64,000 nt of DNA from assembly GCF_000172155.1 (NCBI RefSeq), contig NZ_ABIZ01000001.1, positions 7,473,105 to 7,537,104 on the forward strand, given 5' to 3'. The stretch's first letter is position 1; the number at the start of each line of letters is the position of its first letter. The position numbers were made by a program, and so were the translations under genes. The notes under the pieces were generated by a model. It worked only from the letters and a program-made list of their open reading frames with translations, had not been told where the DNA came from and ran no database searches. The stretch comes from Verrucomicrobium spinosum DSM 4136 = JCM 18804. GTDB taxonomy: Bacteria; Verrucomicrobiota; Verrucomicrobiia; Verrucomicrobiales; Verrucomicrobiaceae. Positions 3,001 to 64,000 of this stretch are shown here, piece after piece.

Positions 3001-5189
3001 ACAAAACCCTGACCATCCATGATGGGCGCTTCATAGACGCGAATCTTCCTCACCTCACTGCTGCCATTTTGGGGGGCTCCATCATGATCATTGGCAATGA
3101 TCAATTGGTGTATGGCACCTGTATAAGACTGGCCGATGCGTACCCGATGAGTGGCCCAATCGTTGGCGTGGTGTTTGTAGGCATCAAAGTCACCGGGCTG
3201 GAGGGCGGAACCCCAAATATCCTTACCCCAAACTTGGACAAGGCGCTTGGCGTTGCCCTCGATCACATCTTCATCCAATCCCACCCCGTGAATCTCACCC
3301 TGCACAGTACCGCGAAACTCAAACTCCAGTACGGTATCGGGAGTAACGGTGTAGTCGAAAGGCACCCGCACCCAGCGATTGCCGGTGAAGGCGAGCCCCT
3401 GACCACCATCCATGACCGTGATGGTGCCTTCTGCTGGTTTGTCTTGGGAGACAAGGGATGCATAAGGGCGAAGATCGATGTAGCCCCCCATCAAGAGGGG
3501 GCCCTCGGGATCCATGGGATCTGTGTTGCCGGTATATTCCTGGAGATTGGTCAGCCCATCTCCATCGGGATCTTGTCCCGCATCGTTCACCAGAGGATTC
3601 AACCCGTGACTCGTCTCCCAGGCATCCGCCATCTTGTCGTGATCGGCATCTGCCACGGCCCCGGTCACTTCCACCTGGAACAGCCGGCTGACGGGCGCGT
3701 TTTCACCGTCGGTCACCGTGAGTTCGAGGGGATAAACCCCGTCGAGCAGGGTTGCGAGGCTGCTTTTTGCGCGGAGTTCGCCAGTGGAGCCAATCTCAAA
3801 GTGGGTGCCGTACGGGTTGTTGCTGGTCGGGATGTTCAACGTCAGGGTCTCATCCTCGGCATCCGCTGCCACCAGATCACCCACCCGGCGAGGCGTCTCC
3901 ACGCTGCCCACCACGGCACCTGGCTGCGCCTGGATGGCTTCCAGCGCATAGTAATGAACCGGAGCATTGTTGACGCGCTGCCCCGTCCGAATGCCAAAGT
4001 CCACGTTGCCGGCGGCTGATTCGACATGCTCACCAAAGCGAGCGCCAGCAGGGAGCTCCGCATGGGAAAATGAGGTGCGAACAAAAGCCTCATCCGGGGA
4101 CATTTCACCATTCCAGTGCATGACCATGACGAGCCCTGAATCCCAGCCCGTCATGTTGTCCATGGAGGTCCAGGAAGAGTCCGGCATGCTCACCGCCACG
4201 CGCATATGGTCATCCACAGCAACAGACCAGCCAAAATGGGAGCCCGTGAGGCCAGACATCGTCGCCTGCACAGGTGCATAGGTGGAGAACAAATTCTTGT
4301 AAGCCAGCAGGCCAGCAGGCGCATCCCAACGGCCCAAATAGACCGCGCCCGCATCGCTCAACACGGTGGGCGTACTGCCCACGACATACTCGCCATCCTC
4401 ATAGGGAGCCCCGACGGCGAACCGCCGGCCCGAAAGACCGACGGAGAATCCAAACTGGGCGCCGGCCTGGGGCTGGCTGCTCCACGCGGTGCGAACCAAG
4501 CTCCAGGTGCCACTCAACTCATGGAAATAGACCGCGCCGGCATCGGCAACCGTGCTGCCCCCGTCCACCTTGTCACGCCCGGGAGCCCCGACCAGCAAAC
4601 GCCCGCCTTCCACAGCCAGGGCGGCACCGAAGCGGTCACCGGCCACCCCATCTGCCAGTTCAAGGGTCTGCACGGAGGTGAGGGTGGTGCCATCAAACTC
4701 GTACACATAGACCACACCACCCGCCACAGAGGAGCTGTTCACCGCACCAGGGGCACCAATGAAGAGGCGGTTGCCCGAGGCGACCACAGACGCCCCGAAT
4801 TCAGACGTCCCACCAGCGGCCAAAGGAGCCTGCAGCGTGGTTTCATAGATCCACTGGCCGGCGGAATCGCGCCGATGCAAATCGACTTCATCCAACGGGC
4901 CAGGGGCGGGAATTGATGAAGACGTGGGGGTGTGCCGAAGAGCCCAGAGCACCTGACCCGTGGCTGCCGTGACGAACTCACCGTCGGGAGCAGCATCCAG
5001 AAGGTTCGCACCCGCAACCGTGATGGCCACGCTGTTGGCCGGACCGTAATGGACCCCCACTTCATCGGGAAGAATGCCGAAACCATCCGGTGGCGTATTG
5101 ACCTGGCCCCACCCGGAAGAAAGCGGCATCGAAAGAGCCGCGCCGAGGATGGCGATACAGAGGGAAATTCGGGAAGACAAATGATTCAT
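1..5189 (-). CDS. Giant secreted multidomain protein (FG-GAP-like, cadherin-like, four jelly-roll-like repeats, LamG), 3' end outside window
   Basis: About 1,729 codons stay open from an ATG at 5189 to the left edge, so the C-terminus is missing. A signal peptide is visible (MNHLSSRISLCIAILGAALS...). FG-GAP/integrin-like propeller blades follow at about 4960-3990, with repeated GAPY/GAPG and 'RFG.A' elements. A cadherin-like stretch lies at about 3950-3670, and calcium-binding thrombospondin-3-like DxDxDGxxD segments lie near 3670-3510, 2544-2405, 1430-1280 and 600-440. Four copies of a module of about 155 residues lie at about 3490-3025, 3024-2545, 2376-1912 and 1911-1432. They share GNRW, VTP, GEIHGxGLDED and NDHD motifs. 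A LamG/concanavalin-like domain covers about 1230-600. The family knowledge is that such proteins are extracellular adhesins or polysaccharide-binding proteins. Export by the adjacent T2SS is only inference. I found no catalytic motif. Plus-strand frames opposite it are antisense shadows. Confidence 0.88.
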   Translation of the reverse strand, partial: MNHLSSRISLCIAILGAALSMPLSSGWGQVNTPPDGFGILPDEVGVHYGPANSVAITVAGANLLDAAPDGEFVTAATGQVLWALRHTPTSSSIPAPGPLDEVDLHRRDSAGQWIYETTLQAPLAAGGTSEFGASVVASGNRLFIGAPGAVNSSSVAGGVVYVYEFDGTTLTSVQTLELADGVAGDRFGAALAVEGGRLLVGAPGRDKVDGGSTVADAGAVYFHELSGTWSLVRTAWSSQPQAGAQFGFSVGLSGRRFAVGAPYEDGEYVVGSTPTVLSDAGAVYLGRWDAPAGLLAYKNLFSTYAPVQATMSGLTGSHFGWSVAVDDHMRVAVSMPDSSWTSMDNMTGWDSGLVMVMHWNGEMSPDEAFVRTSFSHAELPAGARFGEHVESAAGNVDFGIRTGQRVNNAPVHYYALEAIQAQPGAVVGSVETPRRVGDLVAADAEDETLTLNIPTSNNPYGTHFEIGSTGELRAKSSLATLLDGVYPLELTVTDGENAPVSRLFQVEVTGAVADADHDKMADAWETSHGLNPLVNDAGQDPDGDGLTNLQEYTGNTDPMDPEGPLLMGGYIDLRPYASLVSQDKPAEGTITVMDGGQGLAFTGNRWVRVPFDYTVTPDTVLEFEFRGTVQGEIHGVGLDEDVIEGNAKRLVQVWGKDIWGSALQPGDFDAYKHHANDWATHRVRIGQSYTGAIHQLIIANDHDGAPQNGSSEVRKIRVYEAPIMDGQGFVNLRPFGGYALAYDGDKPKQGSAIATTDGKEIEITGNRWLQWLVNYTVTPLTVVEFSYRNDVQGEIHGLGLDEDTQLNNAPRVFQFHGTQYWDKARRLGASDWYAGPSGTWKDYRIEVGKSYTGLMRYLVVGNDHDVTTPNATASIKNIKLYNAEDYDKDGIPDWWENQWGTDVAFKDAGLDSDNDGLSNYQEYQNNSDPLDPEGPLTLAGYLDLRPYNSHTGQDVPSAGTITVENKGESMTVVGNRWVRVPYDYNVTPNTVMEFELQGHQQGEIHAVGLDVDTLDANGKQLCQLWGTDVWSNAFQPGDYDGYSHHAPDWKTYRIRVGRLTTGAMHHFFVVNDDDNAPHDASMTIRKVRFYEAPINDAQGYVDLRYWSGYGLPTNDGDVPKSGSVTPANNGRELSIAGNRWLQVLVDYPVTPRTVVEFSYRADAEGETHGLGLDENTELADAARVFRIHGTQASSYTITTPPSQRYRDQGSWRQYHLPVGRTYPAGLMRYLVLANDDDRLSPLASTQFKDIKIFEQEDADSDGMPDAWEIANSLNPNYAGDANADPDQDGLTNYQEYVTGTNPDTPDTDEDSLRDKLSAFGLAAYWKMDITGDLGQEIQDETNSHAHGTALMQAGLENEAGIAETAALRMGLNNLSRVMLPPDLLEMQADTTLSFWMRSSTQGEMGVVSAPSATNHNAYLVLLKDQFLRLYTGVYSNTYVEWEPGLTDGNWHHVVVVREGSAGKARLYVDGQFQGERTATFVTSDIDLAVLGHEADSLTGDYEPFQRFRGFLDEVRLYQRALSADEASTLALWQPRLKDLTDLDKDGMADAWETANHVTNPQADHDGDGRTNVQEFLAGSDPWDYYNGNPPVLGNIFDPSGGLDLMLRLGIRDPGLANDDSWRAYINGIYIGRNYANGSESEFEYSDILYLPVGLTGTFTFQLILDGNDDGSSFALDLDFLNSIPYELIGFNAEPQGGSYTFTLKISDDLDHDGLMNAVETIMTTDPLNP

Positions 5190-53568: not shown

Positions 53569-55656
53569 TAGCCCGACTTGGCGGATTGCCGGGGTTGATG
53601 ATCCTCCAGCCCTTGATTTTGCGACATTGGGTTCAAAAAGTCTTCACTACATCTTCCGCCATTTCGCGACCTTCCGGGGTCTGCTTCAACCAGTGATTTT
53701 GGGCGGGGCCTGTTCAGGCAGCGTGATCTTGAGCTGGTCCAGCAGCAGTTGCAGATCCTTTGAAGGCTGCGTGTGGCGGCTCATCACCACCTCCCTTCCA
53801 TCAGTTGTGGGCAGATGCACATCGAGCATCTGCACCGTCGCGAACTTCTCCAGCACACTTCGCGGTGTCAGCCCGCTGGCCGTCAGCCTCAAGCGCGCCT
53901 TGAGCGTCACCTGCAGGCAGTACGCCAGGAACGACACGAAGAGGTGCGCTTCAATGCGATGGTCCAACTGGTGGTGCACCGGCCGGATCCCCAGATCGTG
54001 TTTGAGCTCCTTGAACGCCTGCTCCACCTCCACCAGTTGCAGGTAATACTCCCAGAGCTTCGCGGGATCGGTCTCCGTCAAATTGGTGCGCAGCAGGTAA
54101 CGCCCCTCCCGCCGCCATCCTTCACGCAACAGCTTGCGGTCCAGCTCCCAGCTCAGAGTCGCCCGCTGCCGGCCCTTGCCCTTGCTCTTGCTCTTGCTCT
54201 GGTCTTTGCCTGTTGCTGGCTGCAACTGCACGCTGACCTTGACAAAGCGCGCATCCCGCCCCGCCTCCTTTTTGGCGGCACCCAACGCTTCGTACATCGC
54301 ATCACGGTGCAGGGGGCGCTTGCGCTTGCGCAACCCTTCCAGGGCATCCAGATACTTGCGCAGCCGGCGCCGACGCATCGAGCGTTCCTTGGCCACACGG
54401 TCCTGGCTTTGGGCCAGTACATAAGTCTCCCCTTCATGCGGCAGCAGTTTGACGCGCACCTGGGGGCGGGCCTGCTGCCAGGGTTGCCGGGCCAGTGACT
54501 CCTCCAGCTTGCTCAAGCGTCCTTTGGGCGTGCCCACCAGATAGCTCACCGGCGGAGTGCTCTGCCGCATCTGTTCAAGGGTCTCTTCAGTCGGGATGCC
54601 CCGGTCCATGACCCAGATGCGTTGGGCCTTGCCGTACTGGTCTTCGATCCTGGCCAGGAAGCTCTTGAGGGTGCTCTTGTCGGTGGTGTTGCCCGGCAGC
54701 ACCTCATAGGCCAGCGGGAAGCCTTCGGGGGTGACGATGAGGGCAATGACCACCTGCACGCAGTCGCTGCGCTTGTCGCGGCTGTAACCAAAGCGGCGCA
54801 GACCGGTGGGGTTGTCCGGCGGGTTGCTTTCAAAGTAGGTGCTGGTCAGATCATACAGCAGCACCTCATAACGGGCTCCAAACAGGTCGCGCCAGCGCTC
54901 GGTGAGATGATCAAACAAGGCACGCTTGTGGGCCAGGATCTTGTCATGGCATTCGTAGAGACGGTGGATCTCGGCCAGGGCGAAGTCCGCGCCCAGCAGG
55001 TCGGCAATGGCCGTCTGGTCAAACCAGTGGCGGTGCAGCCGCCATTCGCTGCCCGGTTCGATGAGCCGGTAGAGCACCAGGGTCTGGAGCACCAGATCCC
55101 AGCGGGTGCCCTCACGACTGGGCGGCAGACGTGGTCGCCAGAAGTCAGCCAGGAGCAACTGCTCCCAGAGCAGGCAGGCCAGCCAGCAGGCCCCCCATTG
55201 CCGGGGCCGTTCCAGCCGCATGGCCGCAAGGCGCAGACGCACAATGGGCAACTCATCAACACCGACCTGCTCGGGAGCATGATCTTCGGCAAAGAGGGCC
55301 ACCTGTTGAGGAGCGCTCTGGTCTTTGCCGAAGAGTTCAACCGTCTTGCGCCAGGAGGCTTCCTGACGACCATTGAGTTCACCCAGATAAAGGACGTGCC
55401 GCTGGACCACCTGCCGGGAACTGATCCGCCGGTTTTCGACGATGCTCCAGTAGAGGTGCTCTTTGCCATCCTTGAGCCGTTTGGTGGAACGCAGGAACAT
55501 GATGGCCCAAGAAGTTAGCCAGCAAAACGCGCGTGCAACCACCAAGGTCTGCACTACAAGCCGTTTTTGAAACGGACCCTCGCAAAATCAAGGGTTGCAG
55601 CTCGATGGCAGGCCCAAAAATGCCAAAATCGGCCGCGAATCCGCCAAGTTGGGTTA
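53569..55656 (-). mobile_element. IS1634-type insertion sequence, apparently intact
   Basis: The element is about 2.1 kb with terminal inverted repeats TAGCCCGACTTGGCGGATT (53569-53587) and the complement of TAACCCAACTTGGCGGATT (55638-55656), 17 of 19 matching. A second, subterminal pair CCCTTGATTTTGCGA lies at 53611-53625 and at 55580-55594. No clear target duplication is seen. It carries one full transposase gene. The right end stops 10 bp before the stop codon of the GH5 fusion gene. Confidence 0.85.
53686..55500 (-). CDS. IS1634-family transposase
   Basis: The 604-residue product is an IS4-superfamily DDE transposase. Catalytic segments are LLYDLTSTYFESNPP and RIWVMDRGIPTEETL (Asp), and VEVEQAFKELKHDLGIRPVH (Glu). 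Full length without interruption, with start at 55500 (MFLRSTKRLKDGKEHLYWS); an upstream in-frame start at 55554 would lie closer to the IS end. It is the only ORF of the element, which suggests the element is mobile. Confidence 0.9.
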   Translation of the reverse strand: MFLRSTKRLKDGKEHLYWSIVENRRISSRQVVQRHVLYLGELNGRQEASWRKTVELFGKDQSAPQQVALFAEDHAPEQVGVDELPIVRLRLAAMRLERPRQWGACWLACLLWEQLLLADFWRPRLPPSREGTRWDLVLQTLVLYRLIEPGSEWRLHRHWFDQTAIADLLGADFALAEIHRLYECHDKILAHKRALFDHLTERWRDLFGARYEVLLYDLTSTYFESNPPDNPTGLRRFGYSRDKRSDCVQVVIALIVTPEGFPLAYEVLPGNTTDKSTLKSFLARIEDQYGKAQRIWVMDRGIPTEETLEQMRQSTPPVSYLVGTPKGRLSKLEESLARQPWQQARPQVRVKLLPHEGETYVLAQSQDRVAKERSMRRRRLRKYLDALEGLRKRKRPLHRDAMYEALGAAKKEAGRDARFVKVSVQLQPATGKDQSKSKSKGKGRQRATLSWELDRKLLREGWRREGRYLLRTNLTETDPAKLWEYYLQLVEVEQAFKELKHDLGIRPVHHQLDHRIEAHLFVSFLAYCLQVTLKARLRLTASGLTPRSVLEKFATVQMLDVHLPTTDGREVVMSRHTQPSKDLQLLLDQLKITLPEQAPPKITG

Positions 55657-55666
55657 GGCCCCTTCG

Positions 55667-58600
55667 TCAACGCAGCTTCCCGTGCAGCTCAAACCTCTTG
55701 CCCGCCAGCGCCTCTTTGGCGGGCTGGCCCCAAACGGGCGTGGGGGTGTAGTTCCAGTCCACCAGCATGCGGGGGCTCGCGCTGGGATGGAAACACCAGC
55801 CGGTCCAGTTCAAGCGATGCTTCTGGATCAATCCCAGAATGTCGGGCACCCAGGTTTCAGCGTCTTCCTGAACCTCGTGGGGCATGAAGTCCATCTTCTT
55901 GGCATCGGCACCCACTTCCCCCAGCAGGATGGGATACTTCTCGGCAGCATCGAGCAGGTACTTCTGCCAGCCTCGCTTCCAGGGGTAGATGTGGCAGGCA
56001 TAGATGATACCCTGGCCGCCTTCGTCCTTGAGGCCGAATCCATTGAGGATGCCATCCAACTGATAGGCATAGTCCAGACCACCCACCAGCACCATGTTCT
56101 TCGCACCAGTCGAGCGCACGGCGTCCAGCATGGCCTGCATGCCGGGTGACTGAAAACCATGCTTGTTGTGCAACTTCTCCTCGGGTGTAAGGAAAGCATC
56201 CTCATCGCCGTCTTTGCGTTTTTCTTCCACGAACCCGCCATCGCGCCAGACCTCCCAGGAGACGCCGTGGGGTTCGTTCATCAAGTCAAAGATCAAGGCA
56301 GGATGGTTCTTGTAGCGCTCGGCCGCATCCTTCCAGAAATCCAGAAACTCCTTCCGCGGTGCCCGGTAGCGGTGCAGGTCCAGCACCACATACGCGCCGC
56401 GATTTGAAGCCAGGGTGATGATCTGGTCCACCACCGCTCGATAGGCTTTCCCACCGTCTTCGAGGTCTTTGCCAAACCAGTAGTCGTCTTTGATGGGCAG
56501 GCGGATCACGTTGCCCTTCCATTCTTCGATCGCCACCACCACGGACTTGAACACCTGTTCCCCACGCAGGCTCCACTCCAGGCTGGGCACGTTCAGACCC
56601 TGGAGCCAGACTTCCTTGCCCCCGTCCACCGTCACAATGCGATTGCCCTCAGCCCGGATCGCCGGCGGCCACTTGGCCTGGTTGGGTTCCTCAAGCGGGA
56701 CCCGCGATTTCTCGGCCTGGATCTCGCGCTCCTTCTGTCTGGCGAGGAGCAAATTGGCATCGGCAGGCTTGAGCAGGATGTTGTCGAGCTCAAAGCTGCC
56801 GCTCTTCACTTCAAACAATGCCGGCATGACCACTACGGACACTGCCTCTGCGGGCACCAGGAACTCGGTCCGCTTCTCCACCCAGCCATCTGTGTCTTTT
56901 TGAGAATACGGCGGGGCGGGCTTGCCCGGCAGCGTCTTGCCGTCAGCACCTTTGAACTCCAGCATGATGCGCGCATCAAACCAGGGCTTGGGGCCTTTCT
57001 TCAACCCGGTGATGCGCTGTTTCCAGGTCATCTCAAGGGCCGCCGCGCCTTCAGGGACGGGGCATTCGCGATACAGAAGCACGGTCTTGCCAGGCGTGAG
57101 ACTGGTAAGGCGGATGAATCGGTTCCCATCGCTCTCGTCCTTCTCCCAGGAGATGCCACCACCCTTGCCCCAACCTTCGGGCGCATCCTTCTTTTTGCTT
57201 TCGGTTTCAAAGTTGCCGTTGCTCAGCAGGGTGCCTTCCCTGGCCAGCAGAGCTGCCGCCTGCTCGCGACGTTTTGCCGCGACCTTGGCATCCATCTCCG
57301 CCTTCTTGGCGGCCCGCTCTGCGTCGGCCTTCTTCAGCGCCTCGATCTGTTCCGGGTTCAAGGGAGTAACACGAATCTCCGCAAAGTCGAGACGACCCGA
57401 CTCCGCCTGGAAGAGACTGGGCATCATCTGGAGGGCTGCGGCCCCCTCCGGCACCATGTAGTTGCGGGTGATCTCCGTCCACCCGGCCGCCTTCATGGAG
57501 AAGACGATCGGCGATGGCGTGGGTTTCACCTGCTCCCGCGCCTGGTTCAGGAAATGAAACATGGCCCGTGCATCGTTCCAGCTCTGCTTGCCCTTCTTGA
57601 CGTCTGCGGTGCGATACTTGAAGGCCACCTCGATGCCCATCACGCCGGCTGGAATGGGGACTTCACGATAGGCAGAGAGCATCTTGCCGGACTCGACCGC
57701 GGTGATGCGGAAGAACGGCTTGCCTGCCTCATCCTTCTCCCACGAAAGGCCCGTGCCCTTGCCCCAGCCGTCCGGCCAGGAGTCGCCATCCGCATCCTGG
57801 CTGAAGTCGCCATTGCTCACGAGGTTTGTCTTTTGAGCCGGCGCCTGGGCGTTCACGCTCGTGACGCCCACACACAAAAAGGCGAACAGCACGGCACACC
57901 AGGCAGGCTGCCAGGAAGAGCCCGCCCTCCCTGGCCGGCCCCGGCGAAAGGCGGCAGCAATCAAGGCCGCAAACGCCATCAGAGCCCGCGATGGCTCGGG
58001 AGCCGCAGCGATGGAAATCGCACCCTCTGAGTGAAGCTGGGAAGTATCCCAAGCCAGGCCCAAACCTGCCAGAAGGCCATCCACACTGGAGCTGAAAGCA
58101 AAGCTCCCGGAGGTGGCGGAAACCTGCGACCAGTCGATCAGCTTCCAGGTATCCCCCACCGCCCAGGCGGTCATGGCATCGGCCGCGTCCACATGCAGTG
58201 TCGCACCCGCAGCTATATCCACCAGGCCCTGGCCGGCACCGAAGAGCAGCAGGTCTGCATCCACCCCCGTGATGTTATTTCCAAATCCATCCCCGCTGCC
58301 GCCAAAAAGGTCAAACTCCAGGCGGGAGGTGGAACTGAAGGTGACGGTGTCTCCTCGCAGTTCAAACTCTGCTGCCGCAGGCGTGGTCAGGGTGAAGTCA
58401 CCCACATCCAGCAGACCGTGGAAAGTCAGGCTGTTGCCAGCCGCAGCCACCACCAGGCCGGTGCCGCCGAGAGTGGCACCCGCGTTGACCGTGAGATTGC
58501 CCAGCCCGGTGCCGGAGCCAGCGGTGTTGTTCACCAGCAGACGGCCTTGGGTCACCGTTGTGGGTCCGGTGTAGGTATTGTCTCCCGCCAATGCGAGAGT

Positions 58601-60907
58601 GCCAGCCCCCGTCTTGTTCAGTCCGCCGGCAGCGGTGGCATCCGTGAGGGCAGTCTCCACCGTGAGGTCTGCCGCCGCTGCGCCATCGCCGATGTTAAAG
58701 GTGCGGGTGCCATCGAGGCGCACGCCCCCCTGATTGACCTCCGCAGCATTTGAAGAAGCGATCTTCACCGTCTCCTGGTTGCTGGCGTTGCCGGTGAAGG
58801 TGACGTCTCCGCCCAGCGTCAACTGGGCCCCTTTGTTGGTGGCATGGCTGTTCACGATGATGGCGGTGTAGGCTCCTGAAGCAACGTTGCTGATGACCAG
58901 TTCCTTCAGCGAGGTAAAGGCGTTGAAGGCACTGGAGCTGGAGGACTCCTTGGCGCGCAGCACCCCGCCGGACAAGGTGGTCGTGCCCAGCACAGTGATG
59001 TCCCCGCCTGCATTCATCCCCAGCTCACTGCTGTTGAGGGTGGCGTTGCCGTTGATGTTGAAGGTGGCATTGCTGCCGTGATTGCCAAAGTTGCCGCCGT
59101 TCATGGTGAAGTTGTTGATCGTTTCGGTATGGCCGTTGTTGCCGCTGCTTGCGGTGCTGTCCATCCAGAAAGTGCCGGCGTTGATGGTAACACTGGCAGT
59201 GTCTGCGATGGCGTTGCTGTTTTTGAGCAGGGTACCGCCGTTCATCACCAAATCAGTGGTCAGACCGATGTTGGCCACGGATTTGTTCAGACGAAGGATG
59301 CCGCTGTTCAGCGTGGTGACGCCCGTGTAGGTGTTGACCTCCGAGCCACCCAGCACAGTCTGCCCGGTGCCGCCAAAGGTGACCCCCTTCCCCCCATCGT
59401 TGGTGATGACACTGTTGATCTGCAGGGGGGCGGGCGTATTGCCCTGGTTGACCCCGTTGGTGAAGGAGAGAACCACACCCTCCTGGCCGTTGAGATCCAG
59501 AGTTGCCACACTAAGGAGCATGACATCCGTTGCCGCGGCAGTGGTGACAGCTTGACTGGCGAAGATCATGCCGCTGTGAACCCGGAGGGTGGCGCCAGCA
59601 CCTGAGATCGCGACTCCAGTATTGGTCCCTGTACCGGTAAGACTGAACGAAAGCGAATTGATCGAGGTCACACCGGCTCCGAGGGCGGTGTCCTGCGAGG
59701 CGCTTCCAGATGTCCTCGCGTACAATACGTTGTCCAGCTGGGTCTGGCCGCTGACGATGGCGGCGGTGTATTCTGTGCTCGTGTTCAACAGCCGGATTCC
59801 CTTGCTGGCATCATAAGTCACCAGCCCAGTCCCGGAACCTCCCGTAGTGGTGGCACCATACACCCCTTTCACAATGCCGACGGTGGATGATCCTGCCACT
59901 CCACTGCCCGTCAGAACGGGCGATTCATCCAGCATCAGGTTCGAGGAGTCTGCCACCAGATCTGCCGCCGCATTCACCCCGAGGTTCTGCCCCCGGACCA
60001 GCAGGGTGCTGCCTGTCTCCCTCACCAGGCTGCCGGCTGTGAGCCGCGTAGTCCTGGCCGCGTTCGGGGTGAGGGTGACAATGGCGTAGCCCTCCTCCGC
60101 GGTGAGGGCATGGGCAATGGTGTCGTTAGAGTTCGCTCCGGCATTTCCTGTGACTGTCAGGAGGACCCCATCACTGCGCCCCGTTCCATTCAAAGTCACA
60201 CTCTTCACCCGGGTGATGCCGGTGTTTCCACTGGTGCCGCTGTTGAACCGGAGATGAGACTGGCTGCCCCCGTTGAATTTTACGATGAAGTCGGAACTGG
60301 CGGAGCTGCCCGTGGCCCCGTTCAGAGAGAAGGTGCCGGACAGGACGGCAGTGGAGCCCTCATAGGTATTGGCTCCCGAGAAGTTCAGTGTGCCCCCGCT
60401 GGCAATGATGCCTCCGTTGGATATCGCATTAATGAACCCCAGCGTGCGGCTGCTGCCCACTGTGAAATTGCGGACCTCACCGCCGAGATCGATGTCAAGA
60501 GCTTCATTTGTACCAGTCGATCCAAAGAGGATGGTCGCACTGGCCCCCGCGGTGTGCACAATGTCCCCGCCGAGCGTGAAGGTACGATTCCCCCCCGTGC
60601 CCCGCAGCGTGATCCCCGAGTTGCCTGTGTAGTTGAAGGACAATCCGTAACCCGGTGAGAGATCCGAGTTCACAGTAATCGTCTGCCCCCCTGCCAGCGC
60701 AAGCGAACTGTGCCACACTCCATTGATGGTGCTGTCCGCCCAGTTGTTCGTGTCAGAGTATGAGTACGTGCCCCCTGCCGTCGGGCTCCAGCCGGTCGTG
60801 GCCTGCCCCCGGGCCACCATGGCCCATGCTGACACCACCAGGGTCAGCGGTATCCCCAGGGACCGGATCATCGTCCGGCGACGCATATCATTGGTCTTGC
60901 TGTTCAT
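55667..60907 (-). CDS. Beta-strand-repeat PEP-CTERM protein fused in frame to a GH5 glycosidase protein
   Basis: One frame of 1,746 residues. Residues 1-35 are a signal peptide (LVVSAWAMVARGQA). Up to about 960 it is beta-helical with autotransporter-type strand repeats (GGLNKTGAGTLALAGDNTYT). At about 969 there is a PEP-CTERM sorting signal: PEPSRAL, a hydrophobic segment, then RRGRPGRAG. Directly after it comes a second hydrophobic stretch resembling a signal peptide (VLFAFLCVGVTSVNAQ, about 1005-1025). Two lectin-like modules (NLVSNGDFSQ near 1029; LLSNGNFETES near 1229) flank a charged helix. The C-terminal domain (about 1400-1746) is a GH5-type TIM barrel with LMNEPHG (acid/base Glu near 1543) and LLGEVGA (nucleophile Glu near 1663). 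A sorting signal in mid-protein suggests two genes joined by loss of a stop. Confidence 0.85.
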   Translation of the reverse strand: MNSKTNDMRRRTMIRSLGIPLTLVVSAWAMVARGQATTGWSPTAGGTYSYSDTNNWADSTINGVWHSSLALAGGQTITVNSDLSPGYGLSFNYTGNSGITLRGTGGNRTFTLGGDIVHTAGASATILFGSTGTNEALDIDLGGEVRNFTVGSSRTLGFINAISNGGIIASGGTLNFSGANTYEGSTAVLSGTFSLNGATGSSASSDFIVKFNGGSQSHLRFNSGTSGNTGITRVKSVTLNGTGRSDGVLLTVTGNAGANSNDTIAHALTAEEGYAIVTLTPNAARTTRLTAGSLVRETGSTLLVRGQNLGVNAAADLVADSSNLMLDESPVLTGSGVAGSSTVGIVKGVYGATTTGGSGTGLVTYDASKGIRLLNTSTEYTAAIVSGQTQLDNVLYARTSGSASQDTALGAGVTSINSLSFSLTGTGTNTGVAISGAGATLRVHSGMIFASQAVTTAAATDVMLLSVATLDLNGQEGVVLSFTNGVNQGNTPAPLQINSVITNDGGKGVTFGGTGQTVLGGSEVNTYTGVTTLNSGILRLNKSVANIGLTTDLVMNGGTLLKNSNAIADTASVTINAGTFWMDSTASSGNNGHTETINNFTMNGGNFGNHGSNATFNINGNATLNSSELGMNAGGDITVLGTTTLSGGVLRAKESSSSSAFNAFTSLKELVISNVASGAYTAIIVNSHATNKGAQLTLGGDVTFTGNASNQETVKIASSNAAEVNQGGVRLDGTRTFNIGDGAAAADLTVETALTDATAAGGLNKTGAGTLALAGDNTYTGPTTVTQGRLLVNNTAGSGTGLGNLTVNAGATLGGTGLVVAAAGNSLTFHGLLDVGDFTLTTPAAAEFELRGDTVTFSSTSRLEFDLFGGSGDGFGNNITGVDADLLLFGAGQGLVDIAAGATLHVDAADAMTAWAVGDTWKLIDWSQVSATSGSFAFSSSVDGLLAGLGLAWDTSQLHSEGAISIAAAPEPSRALMAFAALIAAAFRRGRPGRAGSSWQPAWCAVLFAFLCVGVTSVNAQAPAQKTNLVSNGDFSQDADGDSWPDGWGKGTGLSWEKDEAGKPFFRITAVESGKMLSAYREVPIPAGVMGIEVAFKYRTADVKKGKQSWNDARAMFHFLNQAREQVKPTPSPIVFSMKAAGWTEITRNYMVPEGAAALQMMPSLFQAESGRLDFAEIRVTPLNPEQIEALKKADAERAAKKAEMDAKVAAKRREQAAALLAREGTLLSNGNFETESKKKDAPEGWGKGGGISWEKDESDGNRFIRLTSLTPGKTVLLYRECPVPEGAAALEMTWKQRITGLKKGPKPWFDARIMLEFKGADGKTLPGKPAPPYSQKDTDGWVEKRTEFLVPAEAVSVVVMPALFEVKSGSFELDNILLKPADANLLLARQKEREIQAEKSRVPLEEPNQAKWPPAIRAEGNRIVTVDGGKEVWLQGLNVPSLEWSLRGEQVFKSVVVAIEEWKGNVIRLPIKDDYWFGKDLEDGGKAYRAVVDQIITLASNRGAYVVLDLHRYRAPRKEFLDFWKDAAERYKNHPALIFDLMNEPHGVSWEVWRDGGFVEEKRKDGDEDAFLTPEEKLHNKHGFQSPGMQAMLDAVRSTGAKNMVLVGGLDYAYQLDGILNGFGLKDEGGQGIIYACHIYPWKRGWQKYLLDAAEKYPILLGEVGADAKKMDFMPHEVQEDAETWVPDILGLIQKHRLNWTGWCFHPSASPRMLVDWNYTPTPVWGQPAKEALAGKRFELHGKLR

Positions 60908-61038
60908 GGATGACTTGAGGAGGTGCGAAAGAAGGAGCGATTGCCTCCACCCATGGGGATCAGGCAGAGACGGTTTGAAATTACCTTCCGGCAGGCAAAC
61001 TGACTACCTAGCCAATCGGCTAAACCTTGATGACATGC

Positions 61039-61701
61039 TCACGGACGGAACACACGGGCGCGACCGGTGACAGGGTCCACCTGCACGGTGCCAAAGTTAT
61101 AAGGGATGCCGGTTTCAGGATTTAACGGATCGTGCTGTGAATAGAAGGTCATGAACCAGTTACCCTCCGGCGGGTCGATCGGTCCGAGGTTGGTGCCTCC
61201 ATTGGGGCGGAAGACAAATCCCAGACCGTCTGTTTCAGTCGTCTGGCCCGGCAGCGTCTCCCTGGTGACAAAAAGCCCGGACCGGTTGGGATTGCCATAG
61301 TCAAACAAGGTGGAACTCTCCGCATCCGCGGCGATGATGATGGACTCCGGCAGATACCGCACACCCCCCTGGGGGCGTCCCTGCCCGGCGGCCCCCGGCT
61401 CCATGACAAACGTGCGAAAGGCACGGAACTGCAGGTCCTGGGTCGAGGCATCCGTTGCGATCTTGTAGAACCGCACCTCCACCTCGCAGTTGCGGGTCAT
61501 GGCCAGTTGCCGGGCAGCGCTCAGCTCGTCCATGATCATGGTGCTGGCGCGGTTCAGGCTGGATGCGCGCAACACCGACACGCCCATTGGAGTCGCCACG
61601 GCCAGGAGGACGGCCGCGATCACACAGACGAAGAGCAACTCCAAGAGAGTGAAAGCAGCCCAATGCCGGCGGGATTCAAGTTGATGATGGCCGCGATTCA
61701 T
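61039..61701 (-). CDS. Verru_Chthon cassette protein D-like pseudopilin
   Basis: The 220-residue product has the N-terminal prepilin segment WAAFTLLELLFVCVIAAVLL with Glu at +5 after a basic leader. The rest (MIMDELSAARQLAMTRNCEV, RFYKIATD, later EGNWFMTFYSQHD) matches the Verru_Chthon cassette D type of Verrucomicrobial pseudopilin-like proteins. It overlaps the stop of the cassette A gene by 4 bp (ATGA) and is translated after it. It is separate from the T2SS pseudopilins at 15410-17696. Role unknown beyond likely membrane-linked filament or export function. Confidence 0.82.
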   Translation of the reverse strand: MNRGHHQLESRRHWAAFTLLELLFVCVIAAVLLAVATPMGVSVLRASSLNRASTMIMDELSAARQLAMTRNCEVEVRFYKIATDASTQDLQFRAFRTFVMEPGAAGQGRPQGGVRYLPESIIIAADAESSTLFDYGNPNRSGLFVTRETLPGQTTETDGLGFVFRPNGGTNLGPIDPPEGNWFMTFYSQHDPLNPETGIPYNFGTVQVDPVTGRARVFRP

Positions 61702-64000
61702 GGGGCAAATCGGGTGACGCTGCGTACGCGGAACTTGTAGGGGCCGACCATGCCTTCAGGATCCAGCTCATCCGTTGGTGTCCTGCCGTCCGCCTTCACC
61801 AGGGAGTCGGTGTTGGGCTCCAAGTAGCGCTCGACCATGAAGCTCCCCCGGAACTCACTGGTCACGAGGTCCCGGCCATCCACAAACTCCCCGGCGGGAG
61901 TCGCTCGCAAGGTCTTCAGGGCCTGCGCTTTCACATGCACCGTGAAGACATTCGACTTGGTGGTGAGCCGCGGATAAATGTGACCATAGGGCTGCTCACG
62001 CACGTTGTCCCCGGTGAGCTGATAGTCCCTCCACCAGTCCGCCATGTTCGCATGCTTCGGGCTCGCACCAGGCTGGGCCGGGTTTACACTCTTGCCCGGC
62101 ACCAGATAGATGTCGCAGATCTCCGAGGCGGAACGGAAGATGTCTCCTGCGGCAAAGCGCCTCTCGAATCCCGCCAGGGTTCCCTCTCTTTCATCAAGGT
62201 TCAGCGCATAACGATAATCCGGCGTGGGAGCGGCCGCAGTGTTGTATTTGTATTTACCAGCATCACTGGCAGGAATGGCCGTGATGCAGGTGGACTTCAG
62301 CACAGCCCGTACTGCCGTGGCCCGGGTGATGTACGCAAAGGGCACCATCTGGTAGTTCATGTTTACCTTGCCTGCTGTGGAGAAGGGATCGCTGATGGCA
62401 TAGGGCTCCACGATGGGCATGGTGAAGAGATCAAGGAAGGCGTGATCTGGCGGGGTGTCATACGGCGGGCCTGCAGGAGGACCGGATGCACTATATTGTT
62501 TCCCAAACCCCGGATGGGCGTCGCCCCCCAGCGGATTGCGGCAGAAAAGCAGGGTCTGCCAGGGCTTGACGTCTGCGGGACGGGCCGGATCAATGCCCGT
62601 GGGCAGGGAACCGAAGGCCACTGCGGAGGAGATCTGACGGTTGGGCGAGAAGGACGCCCCACTCTCCACCACTCCTGCCCCATTCACATAGCCTCCCTTG
62701 GCATAATAGAGTCCGGAGGAGGACTGGGATTTGTTGGCACTCGCCTGATCGGCGATGTTGATGTAGGGACCGTCTGCCGTGGTGCCGATGCCCGTGTCCC
62801 AGTCCCCCAGAGTCACCCCATCGGCCATGTACGCGCCATTGAGACCCCGAGGGGCCACAGGTGCTGTGCTGTTGCGCTTGTTGTCCCCGCGGTTCGGATC
62901 CAGATAGGGCGCATTGGGGAGCAACTTGCCACGCACATCCCCTGAGCCCCCGCTGCCGGCGTAAAATCCATTCTGATTGCTCGTGTCGCCCGGGCCGGTC
63001 TGGGCGTCGATGCGCAGGCTGTGCACCAGATTGGCCTCCGCCGTGACCCCAGGAGCGTCATACGGCTTGCCACCCAGCGCGACATCGCGCTCGCCATGAC
63101 CTTCGAAGTACTCCTCGGGCACTTCCCTCAAGGAGGCATAAACGCGCAGGTCGCCTTTTGCCGGACCACCATAGCGGACCTCCACACTGCGGACAGTGTC
63201 GGTGGAGCTGATCAAGGGGAGTGGATTGTGTTTGCTGTCTTCCAGGATGCCGAAGCGACCGTTCTTCACAGCGGGGTTCGCGTAGCGCGCAATGCGATTG
63301 TCAAAGTTGACGTAGGCCGCCGTGCTCATGGTCGGACGGGGAAGGCCGGTCACCGCAGGAAACTTCAGCTTGAGCGTCTGCGCCGGAACATTGGGCGAAG
63401 AGGCTGCGGCAATCTCAATGGTGATGGTGCCGCCGTTGAAGTCGAACTTGGTGGCGTTCACCTTGAAGTCCGCAGAGCAGAACGTGTAGTTTGTTTCCTC
63501 ATCCCCCTGGCCCAGGACCTTGGCGTTGGTGAAGACACCGGAGGGGCTGTAGTACTGGGTGGCCTGCTCCAGTCCGGTCAGCGCGGTGGCATTGGACTGA
63601 CCGTCGAGGCCAGTTACCAGATTCCCCACCAGGCCGGGGAATGCCATGGGCGTGGTGCCAGCCATGAAGGCGTCCATCCCCTTCACGGAGTAGCGCACAT
63701 GGGACGACCACACGGGCGGGCCAGGTGCAGGGTTGAAGGGTTCCAGGATCAAGACCGCCCGCACCTGGGTGGGATCCGTCTCACTCGATGCATAGAACAC
63801 GAGCGCGGCCTCCGTGACGGTGGGGAATCGTCCAAAACCCCGGGTGCCGTTGGGCAGAGCCAGCGGGACAATCTGCGACTGCGCCGGGATGAGGCGATTG
63901 GGATTAAAAGGGGCATAGTAGTACGCCGGGTTGCCCGCCGTGCTGAAGGTGTTCACATGGCTGCGTACGAAGTCGAACATCTCTGTCAGGATCTGGTCCC
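61698..64000 (-). CDS. Verru_Chthon cassette protein A-like protein, 5' end outside window
   Basis: The frame is open across the right edge; the codons before an internal Met at 63980 read DQILTE, so the true start is upstream. At least 767 residues are encoded. It is beta-rich and contains motifs of the cassette A family (TEMFDFVRSHVNTFS, FSPNRQISSAVAFGSLPTGI, WQTLLFCRNPLGGDAHPG, YAISDPFSTAGKVNMNYQMV). Such proteins occur in gene cassettes with three pseudopilin-like partners (B, C, D) in Verrucomicrobia. It ends by overlapping gene D, so no B or C gene lies between A and D here. Confidence 0.85.
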   Translation of the reverse strand, partial: DQILTEMFDFVRSHVNTFSTAGNPAYYYAPFNPNRLIPAQSQIVPLALPNGTRGFGRFPTVTEAALVFYASSETDPTQVRAVLILEPFNPAPGPPVWSSHVRYSVKGMDAFMAGTTPMAFPGLVGNLVTGLDGQSNATALTGLEQATQYYSPSGVFTNAKVLGQGDEETNYTFCSADFKVNATKFDFNGGTITIEIAAASSPNVPAQTLKLKFPAVTGLPRPTMSTAAYVNFDNRIARYANPAVKNGRFGILEDSKHNPLPLISSTDTVRSVEVRYGGPAKGDLRVYASLREVPEEYFEGHGERDVALGGKPYDAPGVTAEANLVHSLRIDAQTGPGDTSNQNGFYAGSGGSGDVRGKLLPNAPYLDPNRGDNKRNSTAPVAPRGLNGAYMADGVTLGDWDTGIGTTADGPYINIADQASANKSQSSSGLYYAKGGYVNGAGVVESGASFSPNRQISSAVAFGSLPTGIDPARPADVKPWQTLLFCRNPLGGDAHPGFGKQYSASGPPAGPPYDTPPDHAFLDLFTMPIVEPYAISDPFSTAGKVNMNYQMVPFAYITRATAVRAVLKSTCITAIPASDAGKYKYNTAAAPTPDYRYALNLDEREGTLAGFERRFAAGDIFRSASEICDIYLVPGKSVNPAQPGASPKHANMADWWRDYQLTGDNVREQPYGHIYPRLTTKSNVFTVHVKAQALKTLRATPAGEFVDGRDLVTSEFRGSFMVERYLEPNTDSLVKADGRTPTDELDPEGMVGPYKFRVRSVTRFAP

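Follow-up and report, generated by a model that had tools for sequence, protein, structure and literature searches.

Layout of the fused gene

The DNA considered here is a window of 64,000 nucleotides (the whole stretch that was analysed) from Verrucomicrobium spinosum DSM 4136. It contains a single reading frame of 1746 aa on the minus strand, which runs from an ATG at 60907 to a stop ending at 55667 and has no internal stops. The features of this frame, and of a leader element upstream of it, are listed below; the three species are V. spinosum and the two relatives introduced in the next section.

61000..61023, minus strand: hairpin-like leader element TTAGCCnnnTGGCTAGnTAGkCAG, conserved, upstream of the fused gene
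60803..60907, minus strand: N-terminal signal peptide, residues 1-35 (from the sequence; cut site approximate, placed by eye)
58001..60802, minus strand: autotransporter-like beta-strand-repeat half, residues 36-969 (PATR / TIGR02601 repeats)
57932..58000, minus strand: stranded PEP-CTERM tail, residues 970-992 (matrix score 30.0 bits; pN well below pS in the three species)
57902..57946, minus strand: basic loop common to both signals, residues 988-1002 (four to five Arg and no acidic residues in the three species)
57848..57901, minus strand: internal signal-peptide-like segment, residues 1003-1020 (a hydrophobic stretch, then (A/V)xA)
57329..57826, minus strand: first CBM-like module, about residues 1028-1193 (aligns with the second at 36% identity over 167 aa)
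56723..57232, minus strand: second CBM-like module, about residues 1226-1395 (a repeat of the first; beta-strand model)
55784..56620, minus strand: GH5 catalytic domain, residues 1430-1708, the Pfam stretch (PF00150, E 1.3e-30)

The initial annotation had described a PEP-CTERM tail in mid-frame with about 775 residues behind it, a second segment resembling an export signal and ending VNAQ, and then two modules and a GH5 enzyme, and this description is borne out in all three respects. The PEP motif begins at residue 970, and residues 970-992 read PEPSRALMAFAALIAAAFRRGRP. After the short loop behind this tail the protein continues as WCAVLFAFLCVGVTSVNAQ, with a second hydrophobic segment, WCAVLFAFLCVGVT, followed by SVNA/QA (the slash marks the putative cut). 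This segment aligns in position with the N-terminal signal peptide of free GH5 proteins in two other genomes (G008 and G094, see below). Its -3/-1 residues are V/A in the window's gene, and A/A and V/A in the two relatives.

The two modules are mutual repeats of a CBM-like kind; a Foldseek search with them returned tandem CBM22 among the matches, in structures that superpose poorly (TM-score up to about 0.3, rmsd near 20). The GH5 motifs NEP and LGE, which we take to be the catalytic Glu motifs, are identical in all three species. By sequence and by Foldseek, the nearest solved chains to the GH5 domain are GH5 cellulases and the beta-glucanase SdGluc5_26A. An AlphaFold model of the GH5 half, built from four sequences and of moderate confidence (mean pLDDT 61.8, pTM 0.44), gives weak support to an arrangement of beta-rich modules and a GH5 barrel nearest to SdGluc5_26A and Cel5A (PDB 5a8m and 4hty). 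The fused protein resembles these beta-glucanases in the family of its catalytic domain, and differs from them in the duplicated modules that precede GH5 and in the fusion to a PEP-CTERM protein.

Conservation within the genus

The best contig matches to the fused protein come from Verrucomicrobium sp. BvORR106 (G003) and BvORR034 (G001), and in both they cover residues 1-1746. The frame is 5241 nt long in all three Verrucomicrobium genomes, and the proteins align without a gap at 90-91% identity to the two relatives. Among the three species the Jukes-Cantor synonymous divergence ranges from 0.56 to 0.67 over the first half and from 0.51 to 0.61 over the GH5 half. In a fourth genome of the genus (G002, 76% complete), neither half was found.

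Because the same frame, intact and of equal length, is present in two relatives, it is evidently neither an assembly error nor a single-strain accident, the two origins that the initial annotation had entertained. A sequencing or assembly artefact that joined two genes could draw on the fact that the other PEP tails examined in this genome are all terminal (45 of 45), but the frame recurs without indels in two further assemblies whose proteins differ by 9-10%, and only one error common to all three assemblies would explain this; we give such an artefact practically no weight. As for a stop or frameshift at the junction in related genomes, which was to undo the idea of a fusion, there is none within the genus, and there is a stop in more distant relatives, a pattern that shows the direction of the change.

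Nature of the internal tail

Is the stranded tail a PEP-CTERM signal at all? Its geometry (PEP, 15 residues, RR) is that of tails elsewhere in this genome, and the PEP motif, a hydrophobic stretch of about 14 residues and the basic cluster are present in the three species. A position matrix built from 45 other tails of the genome gives it the 30.0 bits listed above, with the runner-up in the six-frame translation of the 64-kb window at 1.8 bits. Among genuine tails it ranks near the bottom, since only 3 of the 45 score lower when each is left out in turn. Moreover, a PF07589 search of the window's genome (G000) at E up to 10 did not include the stranded tail among its 44 matches, and the orthologous tails score 12.5 bits (BvORR034) and 16.1 bits (BvORR106), both below the cut-off of 20.7. 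The stranded tail is thus, as judged from sequence, genuine in kind but weak.

The position of the tail sets it apart. For the window's genome we collected three further ends of repeat proteins and 43 of the 44 PF07589 matches, all but one in a 52-aa frame; 45 of these 46 ends are PEP tails, and all 45 end 0-28 residues past the end of the match (a Pfam match for 42 and a protein match for 3). For BvORR106, 55 of 57 matches were fetched, leaving out two weak ones (one of these in a 52-aa frame); one of the 55 is no PEP tail, and 53 of the remaining 54 end within 21 residues, the exception being the counterpart of the fused gene. Among the tails examined in these two genomes, then, the only internal one is that of the fused gene, which has 754 residues after residue 992, versus 98 others (45 and 53) that are terminal. 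The window's genome also has four exosortase-family matches over the cut-off (PF09721).

Unfused relatives and the origin of the fusion

The two halves of the fused protein correspond to two separate genes in genome G094, which belongs to another order. There, a PEP-CTERM gene is followed by TGA, 18 nt, and a GH5 gene in the same frame. The PEP-CTERM protein is about 61% identical to the first half over 793 aa and ends RRRKRAA-stop, and the GH5 protein carries its own signal peptide. The arrangement in a second genome, G717, agrees in gene order and frame; here TAA separates the genes, and the first ATG lies 90 nt further on. The pairs in G094 and G717 thus resemble the fused gene in the two kinds of protein, their order and their frame, and differ from it in being separate genes with a stop, a spacer, and a start and n-region belonging to the second protein. 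A looser adjacent pair occurs in G659, where a related protein (40.7% identity over 637 aa) is encoded upstream of GH5 in another frame, and in G083 the two kinds of gene are divergent neighbours. The suggestion that two exported proteins had been fused is therefore supported most directly by G094 and in like manner by G717, with G659 as a looser case.

Since relatives keep the stop-separated state, the fusion is likely to be the derived one. Loss of a stop codon or an indel had been proposed as its cause. The stretch that begins with PEP and extends to the AQ at the signal site counts 61 codons in G094 versus 52 in Verrucomicrobium, which on balance lacks 9 codons, the first stop and the second start among them. 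This net loss is easier to reconcile with an in-frame deletion or replacement than with a mere change of the stop codon, though the steps cannot be retraced exactly.

How widely are the two genes distributed? The GH5 half has a match in 9 of 57 relatives and in 29 of 384 genomes of the class (E up to 1e-30). Outside Verrucomicrobium the relatives of the GH5 half are free-standing. Among the GH5-half matches an open frame of 1778 aa occurs only in Verrucomicrobium, the other frames there being 237-1012 aa long. The first half is rarer, with matches in 3 of 57 relatives, all within the genus, and in 5 of 384 class genomes (E up to 1e-20). Every one of these five first-half genomes also belongs to the 29 that have the GH5 half; the hypergeometric p for this overlap is 1.8e-6, and 3.2e-4 when the genus is left aside (the two sets of 384 are taken as identical genomes, and few candidates were scored per genome). 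Within the order to which G094 belongs, the fused protein has a match in 14 of 372 genomes (E up to 1e-30), and no uninterrupted fusion is found among the places listed. Two long frames were considered as second fusions and rejected: the 1012-aa frame of G180 runs back into an overlapping gene and has no PEP tail, and the match to the 1517-aa frame of G717 reads through the TAA between the two genes.

Pairing of PEP-CTERM genes with this type of GH5 gene may extend beyond relatives of the first half. When the three longest upstream frames of at least 100 codons are considered at each locus, a PEP-tailed frame lies immediately before GH5 in at least 5 of 21 GH5 loci, those of G094, G215, G334, G244 and a Puniceicoccaceae MAG. 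Only that of G094 is a clear relative of the first half; G215 gives a weak match of 73 aa. Apart from G094, the PEP-CTERM genes in these genomes lie 82-138 nt upstream of a free GH5 gene, and a further PEP tail is seen upstream of GH5 in G159 (in all, loci L179, L180, L182, L018 and L095).

G008, which is more closely related, possesses the GH5 gene but lacks the first half; the GH5 gene there follows the same prepilin gene and leader element that precede the fused gene in the window. Either G008 lost the first gene, or Verrucomicrobium gained the first gene at that spot.

Evolution of the junction

In the stranded tail, amino-acid changes are much less frequent than synonymous ones (Fisher p 1e-6, 0.007 and 7e-7 for the three species pairs, which are mutually dependent here and below). 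The same is true of the loop together with the second signal (p 0.006, 0.010 and 0.0002), and the second signal alone gives p 0.03, 0.015 and 0.053. Residues 994-1020 are the fastest-changing stretch at the amino-acid level. The absence of stops from the junction was considered as proof of selection and discarded, because the 28 stop-free codons after the tail have a simulated probability of 0.14 without selection.

The lowest synonymous divergence of the frame lies elsewhere, in the middle of the repeat half (residues 678-706, 58790-58876, minus strand; 0.106 over 25 codons, three pairs pooled).

A proposed polyprotein and its alternatives

We consider it on balance probable that a fusion spread across the genus turned two functionally linked exported proteins into one polyprotein, with the processing proposed here. 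We infer a single polypeptide. Its hairpin topology and its cleavage by signal peptidase would follow from two established rules, the positive-inside rule on membrane topology and the -3/-1 rule on signal-peptidase sites. The N-terminal signal peptide would start export of the PEP-CTERM beta-strand-repeat surface half, and the PEP helix would stop transfer in an outside-to-inside orientation. The basic stretch, RR(G/S)RP..., would remain in the cytoplasm and double as the n-region of the second signal, whose hydrophobic segment would re-insert from inside to outside. Signal peptidase I would then cut after the A/V-x-A site, an assignment made by motif and constraint, and release the GH5 half into the periplasm. 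The second protein of Verrucomicrobium appears to have lost its start and its basic n-region. Because the basic cluster of the PEP tail now sits where that n-region was, one loop could both anchor the PEP helix and serve the second signal. The two membrane signals, the basic loop and the signal-peptidase-type site are all kept in the three species.

Exosortase may also process the PEP tail and so yield two mature proteins at 1:1; its action on an internal tail is the most speculative part of the scheme. The full version, in which an internal exosortase sorting signal overlaps the next signal peptide and two membrane proteases cut the chain into equal amounts of surface protein and enzyme, is a possibility to which we give somewhat less than an even chance.

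Perhaps the GH5 half instead has an internal translation start of its own, close to the tail or within it (such as ATG 977 or TTG 982), with the long frame as a by-product. These two codons are conserved in the three species, and reading from TTG 982 would give a plausible signal peptide of 39 residues. A start near 57900, for which the initial annotation had proposed a test, does exist as GTG 1006, with an anti-Shine-Dalgarno pairing of -5.3 kcal/mol, but this codon lies within the hydrophobic segment and is not kept in either relative. Scored against the same anti-Shine-Dalgarno sequence, ATG 977 pairs at -2.6 in all three species and codon 949 at -5.5 to -6.7, while three real starts pair at -0.2, 0.3 and 1.0, weaker than several of the internal candidates. 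Ribosome-binding sites therefore do not exclude an internal start, and a missing Shine-Dalgarno sequence was dropped as proof against one. No promoter or terminator was found in a scan of 57600-58300, a result of little weight because shuffled sequence also yields next to none (0.0 and 0.4 expected). The synonymous divergence of the junction, on the other hand, lies at the 67th-97th percentile of 25-codon windows, versus the 4.5th at the true start, the one start that serves as yardstick. This high divergence argues against a hidden start or another nucleotide signal at the junction. Moreover, with no stop in the way, ribosomes on the first half would continue into GH5, and the fused product would still be made. 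An internal start as the main source of the GH5 half thus seems improbable.

A closer competitor, though still rather unlikely in our judgement, accepts the fused protein and takes its PEP tail to be vestigial. Exosortase would then no longer act on the tail, the two helices would form a hairpin anchor, and the GH5 half would be freed by signal peptidase alone or stay tethered as part of a bifunctional protein. The low matrix score of the tail is in keeping with this, and the -3/-1 residues would still permit the signal-peptidase cut. Haft et al. (2006, PMC1569441) likewise suggest that PEP-CTERM regions whose tails are dramatically longer, of which there are very few, may be non-functional. 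A dead signal would drift, however, and PEP, the spacing and RR are kept in the three species with low pN relative to pS. We rank the polyprotein reading, in which exosortase may process the tail, above this one.

Relation to known systems

Bacterial polyproteins with an internal signal peptide are known, an example being FbcH of Bradyrhizobium, which is the precursor of cytochromes b and c1. There, as proposed here, two proteins are made as one chain, and export of the second depends on an internal signal that signal peptidase cleaves. FbcH combines two respiratory subunits, whereas the fused gene joins a PEP-CTERM surface protein to a secreted enzyme, and in the fused gene the two signals have one common basic loop. 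With the PEP-CTERM / exosortase (EpsH) system, as described by Haft et al. (2006, PMC1569441), the locus has in common the PEP motif, the hydrophobic stretch and the basic cluster; the first half also starts with a signal peptide, and the genome has exosortase genes. It differs from that description in its internal tail and in the second export signal, which starts within the same loop.

Our search of the open-licence literature found no precedent for a conserved internal PEP tail in one loop with a second export signal, and the papers it listed on polyproteins were viral or unrelated. PEP-CTERM proteins, like polyproteins with internal signals, are already known. The fused locus is a natural experiment on whether exosortase requires the C-terminus of its substrate to be free, and it is fixed in the genus while the unfused arrangement persists in relatives. 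Gene deletions have been reported in V. spinosum DSM 4136, the laboratory type strain (PMC12283558). In addition, the gene pair, the co-occurrence and the fusion together link a large beta-repeat surface protein to one particular glycan-cutting enzyme as its partner; for most of the PEP-CTERM class to which this surface protein belongs, no function is known. If processed as proposed, the product would be an unusual bacterial polyprotein with two membrane cuts.

Neighbourhood of the locus

A 622-aa frame that looks like a transposase (named by eye; 53686-55554, minus strand) lies directly behind the GH5 stop, and at the thresholds used no counterpart was found at the loci of the two relatives. 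On the other side of the fused gene, Rfam gave no match to the leader element in 55000-62000 of the window, and in loci L017 and L019 it matched RNase P only. In G008 the leader element lies between the prepilin gene and the free GH5 gene, and in the loci L019 and L017 its copies are at 4054 and 10437 and at 1514 and 7885, respectively. It sits before a pseudopilin operon, and again between the last gene of that operon and the GH5 or fused gene. The 8.2-Mb genome of the window's species has two mismatch-free copies about 6.4 kb apart around the operon, the second at C1:7540475, and a third match with 3 mismatches. The prepilin-like gene and its large partner gene (61039-63980, minus strand) form an operon of a multi-copy kind; prepilin matches number 16 in BvORR034, 13 in BvORR106 and 8 in G008.
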